Source: Pirellulaceae bacterium (GTDB taxonomy: Bacteria > Planctomycetota > Planctomycetia > Pirellulales > Pirellulaceae). Taken from it: 64,000 nt of DNA. The position numbers were made by a program, and so were the translations under genes. Each line of letters starts with the position of its first letter. Positions within the stretch are counted from its first letter, which is position 1. The notes beneath the pieces were generated by a model that worked only from the letters and a program-made list of their open reading frames with translations, did no database searches and had not been told where the DNA came from. This document shows positions 16,975 through 50,192 of the stretch, in pieces. The DNA lies in NCBI GenBank assembly GCA_026004775.1, contig BPJU01000007.1, positions 124,001-188,000 on the forward strand, in the 5' to 3' direction.

Positions 16975-16982
16975 CGAAAATG

Positions 16983-17193
16983 GTAACCGTTCACGGTTAG
17001 CACATGAAGAACACGATATTGGCTTATGGGGTAGCGGAAGTCGCCAGGCGGGCGCGGTAGCGGCCGCCGCAAGACTTCCGCAACGAAAAAATCTTCGCGA
17101 AGCGTCCACATTCCGTATGCGGAACACGCAAGTGTTCCGCATCTTTGGAAGCGAGGCCCCGAAACAGCTTGTGATTCAACCGTGAACGGTTAC
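16983..17193 (+). mobile_element. IS66-like MITE, copy 1 (211 bp, 8-bp target duplication)
   Basis: Perfect 16-bp terminal inverted repeats: GTAACCGTTCACGGTT at 16983-16998 and its complement at 17178-17193. The flanking direct repeat CGAAAATG (16975-16982 and 17194-17201) is a perfect 8-bp target duplication, which marks transposition. There is no transposase inside. The interior holds three palindromic parts: a hairpin with arms GCGGAAGTC/GACTTCCGC (17033-17081), CTTCGCGAAG (about 17092-17101), and TGCGGAACAC-GCAA-GTGTTCCGCA (17119-17142). GTAA ends with 8-bp duplications are the known IS66-family signature, so a non-autonomous IS66 derivative is inferred. Confidence 0.9.
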
Positions 17194-17201
17194 CGAAAAT
17201 G

Positions 17202-20731: not shown

Positions 20732-20758
20732 TGCGAAGATTCGGAACCGTTCACGGTC

Positions 20759-26101: not shown

Positions 26102-26135
26102 CCGCGTCGCCCAACCATTGTTTGTTTGCCACGAA

Positions 26136-26346
26136 GTAACCGTTCACGGTTGAATCACAGGCTGTTTCGGGGCCTCGCTTCCACAGGTGCGGAACACTTG
26201 CGTGTTCCGCACACGGAATGTGGACGCTTCGCGAAGATTTTTTTGTTGCGGAAGCCTTGCGGCGGCCGATACCGCGTCCGCCTTGCGACTTCCGCTATCC
26301 CATAAGCCAATATCGTGTTCTTCATTTTCTAACCGTGAACGGTTAC
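26136..26346 (-). mobile_element. IS66-like MITE, copy 2 (211 bp, 8-bp target duplication)
   Basis: Same element as at 16983, in the opposite orientation. Terminal repeats are at 26136-26151 and 26331-26346, both perfect. The 8-bp target duplication GCCACGAA is at 26128-26135 and 26347-26354. It is inserted between the 368-aa gene and the Lon/CARF-like gene, ending 26 bp before the latter's ATG, so it splits an otherwise same-strand cluster and replaces the immediate upstream region of the protease gene. Confidence 0.92.
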
Positions 26347-26489
26347 GCCACGAACATGGTAGTATCTCACTTACATAGATACCACCGGATAAATGTAACG
26401 GAAATATACCACCGCCGCGGTTCAGACCCGTGATGGCCAAGATGTTTCCGTCTCATCACGCGCCGAGCTATTGCCCCGCCCACACCGGT

Positions 26490-49979: not shown

Positions 49980-50192
49980 GTAACCGTTCACGGTTGGCAA
50001 ATAAAGAAAACGATATTGGTTTAGGGGGTAGCGGAAGTCGCAAGGCGGAAAGCGCCAGCGTTCCGCCGTAAGACTTCCGCATTGAAAAAATCTTCGCGAA
50101 GCGTCCACATTCCGTATGCGGAACACGCAAGTGTTCCGCACCTTTGGAAGCGAGGCCCCGAAACAGCTTGTGATTCAACCGTGAACGGTTAC
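49980..50192 (+). mobile_element. IS66-like MITE, copy 3 (213 bp, no target duplication)
   Basis: Perfect 16-bp terminal repeats at 49980-49995 and 50177-50192, with an interior highly similar to copies 1 and 2 except for the variable inner hairpin. The flanking octamers (GTCTCAGG left, AAGATAAG right) do not match, so it is older, rearranged, or has lost one duplication by mutation. Its right end is 35 bp from the ATG of the next gene. Confidence 0.88.

Follow-up and report, generated by a model that had tools for sequence, protein, structure and literature searches.

A probable orphan IS66-type MITE family in a Pirellulaceae genome

Introduction

Single-ORF elements of the IS66 family include ISDge4 of the ISBst12 group, described with ends GTGACTACTCAGCA / GTAACTGCTCAGCA and an 8-nt repeat (PMC12898284), and 8-bp repeats have also been reported for two other IS66 elements, ISPpa5a and ISPpa7 (PMC3281130). 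MITEs of the IS982 and IS5 types have been described (PMC9769881, PMC3189936), among them the IS982-derived MITECca01 with 169 copies (PMC9769881). No IS66-derived MITE was found in the literature searched, as judged by titles and abstract openings and with few subscription journals included.

In this study, we analyzed a MITE in a stretch of 64,000 nucleotides (hereafter, the window) and in the genome to which it belongs, which comprises 6,143,060 bases in 30 contigs and is 99.9% complete. The family was compared with IS66 elements of the same genome and of the order.

MITE copies in the window

Three MITE copies were identified in the window, as the preliminary description had reported, each with perfect 16-bp inverted ends GTAACCGTTCACGGTT, a sequence that is itself an imperfect palindrome (AACCGT-TC-ACGGTT). 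The window contained six exact matches to this end and one match with two mismatches, against a chance expectation of 0.01. The features are as follows.

16983..17193, + strand: copy 1 of the MITE (211 bp, subfamily A; end search, flanks, subfamily alignment)
16975..16982, unstranded: left 8-bp target duplication CGAAAATG of copy 1 (flank reading)
17194..17201, unstranded: right 8-bp target duplication CGAAAATG of copy 1 (flank reading)
16983..16998, + strand: left 16-bp terminal inverted repeat of copy 1 (end search)
17178..17193, - strand: right 16-bp terminal inverted repeat of copy 1 (end search)
26136..26346, - strand: copy 2 of the MITE (211 bp, subfamily A), in the opposite orientation to copy 1 (end search, flanks)
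26128..26135, unstranded: left 8-bp target duplication GCCACGAA of copy 2 (flank reading)
26347..26354, unstranded: right 8-bp target duplication GCCACGAA of copy 2 (flank reading)
49980..50192, + strand: MITE copy 3, 213 bp, B/A hybrid, without target duplication (end search, flanks)

The two different, perfect 8-bp duplications reported earlier were thus recovered at copies 1 and 2, and the reported lack of a transposase was borne out, the reading frames overlapping the copies being short (132 aa or less). All three copies lie between large reading frames. The interior had been called highly similar in all three, which holds for copies 1 and 2 but not for copy 3; in an alignment of 22 copies, the left part of copy 3 was B-like, and the part from about the middle to the right end was A-like. 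The flanks of copy 3 differed (GTCTCAGG on the left and AAGATAAG on the right), indicating no target duplication. A second hybrid of this type, at C8:307050 (L100), had an exact 8-bp duplication. The hybrid type is therefore able to move, and the absent duplication at 49980 needs another cause, presumably recombination, an adjacent deletion, or decay, for instance. Additionally, a solitary intergenic end with two mismatches (GGAACCGTTCACGGTC) was found at 20743-20758 and is perhaps a decayed remnant.

Copy number, target duplications, and subfamilies

Genome-wide, the 16-bp end gave 109 forward and 102 reverse matches with at most one mismatch (73 and 73 of them exact), and the pattern read backwards gave none in either direction. 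A 26-bp diagnostic end of the MITE yielded 78 matches at up to two mismatches. The family comprises roughly 75 copies, in agreement with the high copy number suggested from the window. Merging of identical flanks reduced the 78 matches to 74 distinct copies (one merger being a duplicated pair on contig C12). Five of these had no second end inside 400 bp, leaving 69 two-ended rows, among which one 128-bp element was counted twice. The lengths were mostly 211 bp (38 rows) or 213 bp (17 rows). An 8-bp target duplication was present at 54 of the 69 rows, exact in 41 and with one mismatch in 13, and was lacking in 15; a separately deduplicated count gave 40 exact duplications and 13 with one mismatch. 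Exact direct repeats of other lengths from 5 to 12 bp were found in none of the 69 rows, and one row had a 4-bp match only. Copies on contigs C5 and C10 have common flanks and may represent one insertion that was duplicated.

Comparison with empty sites, which had been proposed as a check, also gave a positive result. In a search among the extracted loci, 8 of 54 copies had a counterpart in which the target was uninterrupted, whereas only 1 of 54 mismatched joins did. Of these eight, one was a trivial self-match and two were at the limit (six mismatches in 42); the remaining five were mostly MITEs nested in a longer family, here called element A. The duplications, together with the empty sites, show that the MITE has transposed.

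In a comparison of 67 copies, which left out the two 128-bp rows, subfamily A (44 copies) and subfamily B (22 copies) had mean identities to their consensus of 97.2% and 98.2%, respectively. Because both are nearly identical to their consensus, the amplification was recent. The single outlier is 270 bp long and carries 57 additional bases close to one end. Since these bases start like the end of element A, comparison by eye suggests that the MITE was derived from this longer family.

Element A and interrupted elements

Element A is a second gene-less family bounded by the same ends as the MITE. Among the extracted loci, end pairs more than 280 bp apart were found in 11 rows (366 to 2,505 bp), with exact 8-bp duplications in five, one-mismatch 8-bp duplications in four, and duplications of 9 bp and 7 bp in one row each. 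Two of the 11 rows are not simple copies of element A, namely an interrupted MITE (L071) and a composite of element A and an adjoining MITE (L076). Some copies of element A have long internal repeats, such as a 149-bp unit repeated 7.8 times in L115 598-1756 (C12), and the number of long internal repeat units differs among its copies. Where element A adjoins the MITE, in L076 91-1107 (C10), the 8-bp sequence GTTTTGTC occurs three times, between and around both. Further short elements, bounded by GTAACCGTTC and flanked by perfect 8-bp duplications, measured 155, 182, 353, 356, and 401 bp, and a 205-bp element with GTAAGCG/GTAACCG ends likewise had a perfect 8-bp duplication.

Some longer units with matching ends were considered as autonomous elements and rejected. 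The 2,087-bp unit C2:592197-594283 (L071 498-2584), which also has a duplication, is a type-B MITE split by another insertion. This insertion has its own ends, GGGTGCAGGTTGCACTTTG, which start GGGTGCAGGTTGCAC, and GAATTTGAG is repeated at its borders. No Pfam family was matched by the 498-aa frame of the insertion, which may be an ISKra4 element. In the elements of 2.2-2.9 kb at C8:281963-284189 (L113) and C17:37526-40410 (L112), the transposase gene belongs to IS110 and was read as a passenger because it lies at an identical GGGGGAGAG motif in both. The IS110 gene follows this motif in both elements, the sequence further left differing, and may target the palindromic repeat.

Resident and single-gene IS66 elements

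An IS66 transposase had been predicted elsewhere in the genome. Ten matches to PF03050 were identified at six places, corresponding to three full elements with open tnpC frames and three damaged ones. The prediction was therefore right as to the presence of IS66 loci but not as to the type expected from the MITE, since all six loci had GTAAGCG(T/C)ACAC ends and the profile of DUF6444, which is the N-terminal domain in the other branch of IS66, had no match in the assembly at E 0.01 (1 of 14 control genomes was positive). A full tnpABC element with matching ends, also looked for, was not recovered: the resident end GTAAGCGTACACCGGC is identical to the MITE end at 11 of 16 positions and, with GTAA set aside, at 7 of the other 12 (P about 0.014). 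The MITE was accordingly rejected as a deletion derivative of the resident element, the ends not being identical. None of the five resident end pairs examined (L073, L133, L134, L135) had a target duplication, which is unusual for IS66. Judged by its ends, the resident tnpABC element would not be the obvious partner of the MITE.

In the rest of the order, 24 of 396 genomes and 12 of 144 genera contained an exact copy of the 16-mer, with one match for the reversed control among the matches listed. Single exact matches in the relatives L151, L160, L163, and L132 were discarded as GTAACCGTTCACGGTTAC palindromes without a partner end. With the L198 TnpC as query, matches were obtained in 49 of the 396 genomes at E 1e-20, and 30 loci from 68 match rows were searched for the MITE end within 500 bp at up to two mismatches, with 200 shuffled patterns as control. 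The end was present at 25 of the 30 loci (24 of 29 independently of the query locus, which is one of the 30) and on both sides at 11, compared with 0.06 and 0 for the shuffled patterns; five loci had no MITE end. The kinship with IS66 put forward in the preliminary description is supported by these single-gene loci. The two-ended elements measured 1,466-1,576 bp and contained one gene, encoding a transposase of about 450-490 aa. The Pfam families DDE_Tnp_IS66 and DUF6444 were matched by the transposases of L247 and L262, which have both ends, and by the query P0001.

None of the intact elements seen carried the exact 16-bp end on both sides. A genome of the same family (G264) had six exact-TIR copies, and in five of these, remnants lay directly inside the exact end. 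Four of the five contained the beginning of a TnpC-like reading frame; the one frame piece tested, of 106 residues, matched DUF6444 but not the DDE domain.

Duplication length varies within the single-gene branch. Duplications of 8 bp were found at the two-ended elements L247, L248, and L283, of 9 bp at L262, L264, and L276 (three copies in two genomes, with the first 14 bases of the MITE), and of 7 bp at L275. Six of the 11 two-ended elements had no detectable duplication (L249, L251, L261, L266, L269, and L272), L268 stops at a contig end, and L273, with ends GTAACTATTCAGC, had one of 8 bp. There is no clean split of duplication length by transposase type, because L283 resembles L262 and L264. 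A transposase with matching ends from a family giving another duplication length had been named in advance as speaking against the IS66 assignment; this is touched in part by the three 9-bp copies, although these are IS66 transposases, and 8 bp was found at others whose ends are closely similar. The constant 8 bp of the MITE points to the 8-bp members of the branch, short of proof.

Distribution of the family

Among 392 genomes of the phylum, the complete 211-bp MITE was found only in its own genome, and four others matched over inner fragments of 24-42 bp. A search of the public genome collection identified exact A-type ends in two contigs (BPJP01000024.1 and BPJP01000025.1) of the MAG 'Gemmatales bacterium KatS3mg105', in stretches (L317-L320) carrying copies of A, B, and element A with duplications and showing 99.66% identity over 7,737 compared bases. 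The adjoining 3.3 kb had no match in the MITE's own genome in a search that was run without a positive control, so both misbinned contigs and transfer are possible. In viral contigs, the 16-mer occurred in 11 stretches, none of which had a partner end at a distance of 60-3500 bp. Additionally, the 3.5-Mb assembly of the genome G376 (73% complete; e.g., L169) contained the exact 16-mer end 238 times but gave no PF03050 match, representing a denser, orphan-like family.

Origin of the MITE copies

Taken together, these results are best explained by an orphan IS66-type MITE family that was mobilised in trans by a single-gene, DUF6444-type IS66 transposase whose gene is now lost or unassembled, to which we assign a probability of about 0.86; the transposase is deduced from the ends that bound it in relatives. 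Such a transposase would bind the 16-bp ends in trans and insert MITE copies at staggered 8-bp cuts. A and B would correspond to two master copies that spread recently in at least two bursts, after which the gene may have been lost from the genome or may lie in an unassembled repeat, with the resident IS66 as a possible substitute. Because the assembly has no DUF6444 gene, the family appears orphaned or its partner unassembled. With the cognate gene lost or unassembled, the MITE copies are probably stranded if the resident tnpABC element cannot cross-act.

Mobilisation in trans by the resident three-gene element, with ends GTAAGCGTACACCGGC, is unlikely, although it is an IS66 with three full copies and open tnpC frames and its agreement with the MITE end outside GTAA exceeds chance. 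It ranks lower as partner because of the five mismatches in 16, the ends of the single-gene clade fitting far better, and its five end pairs lack the target duplications that the MITEs have. A transposase from outside IS66 is the least probable source. Some other IS families likewise give 8-bp duplications, and the end sequence by itself is insufficient to prove the transposase family, but the MITE end is tied to IS66 loci (25 of 30) against a shuffled control near zero. It is also very improbable that the copies have been retained as a useful RNA or terminator structure of a transcribed element and not as transposons. The 211-nt strand folds at -103.4 kcal/mol, well beyond its shuffles (z -8.66), and the window copies lie between large frames; part of this fold, however, is supplied by the inverted ends of the MITE, and the Rfam search of the window gave no match. 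The covariation test on 22 of the compared copies, the same as in the subfamily alignment, was nil (term -0.05, with double changes in 3 of 48 pairs), and we rate this reading low because covariation is missing.

On a wider scale, we tentatively propose, with somewhat less than even confidence, that IS66 MITEs with one conserved end arose independently across the order and that they outlive or outnumber their transposase in some genomes. If so, IS66 ends would form a reservoir open to re-mobilisation by a visiting transposase, and IS66 MITEs would be a class absent from the literature searched. In the present genome, an unannotated repeat is now a defined transposon family with its ends placed in a branch of IS66. 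As a recently amplified MITE without a matching transposase in the assembly, it allows loss, incomplete assembly, and cross-mobilisation of the partner to be tested directly.

Comparison with known systems

As far as the cited descriptions extend, single-ORF IS66 elements of the ISBst12 group resemble the MITE in their GTAAC...TCA-type ends and 8-bp duplication (ISDge4, PMC12898284), whereas the MITE is gene-less, 211-213 bp long, and occurs in a genome in which the cognate element was not found. The tnpABC elements share GTAA ends with the MITE and have an IS66 DDE transposase, and 8-bp repeats are given for ISPpa5a and ISPpa7 (PMC3281130). In contrast, the resident tnpABC element differs in its GTAAGCGTACACCGGC ends, its lack of a DUF6444 domain, its length of 3.45 kb, and the lack of a duplication at the pairs examined. 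The parent of MITECca01, an IS982 element, is described as still present (PMC9769881), while the IS66 parent was not found in the genome studied here. In kind, the MITE family is ordinary: like MITECca01 as described (PMC9769881), it is short, gene-less, and present in many copies from a lineage-restricted burst.
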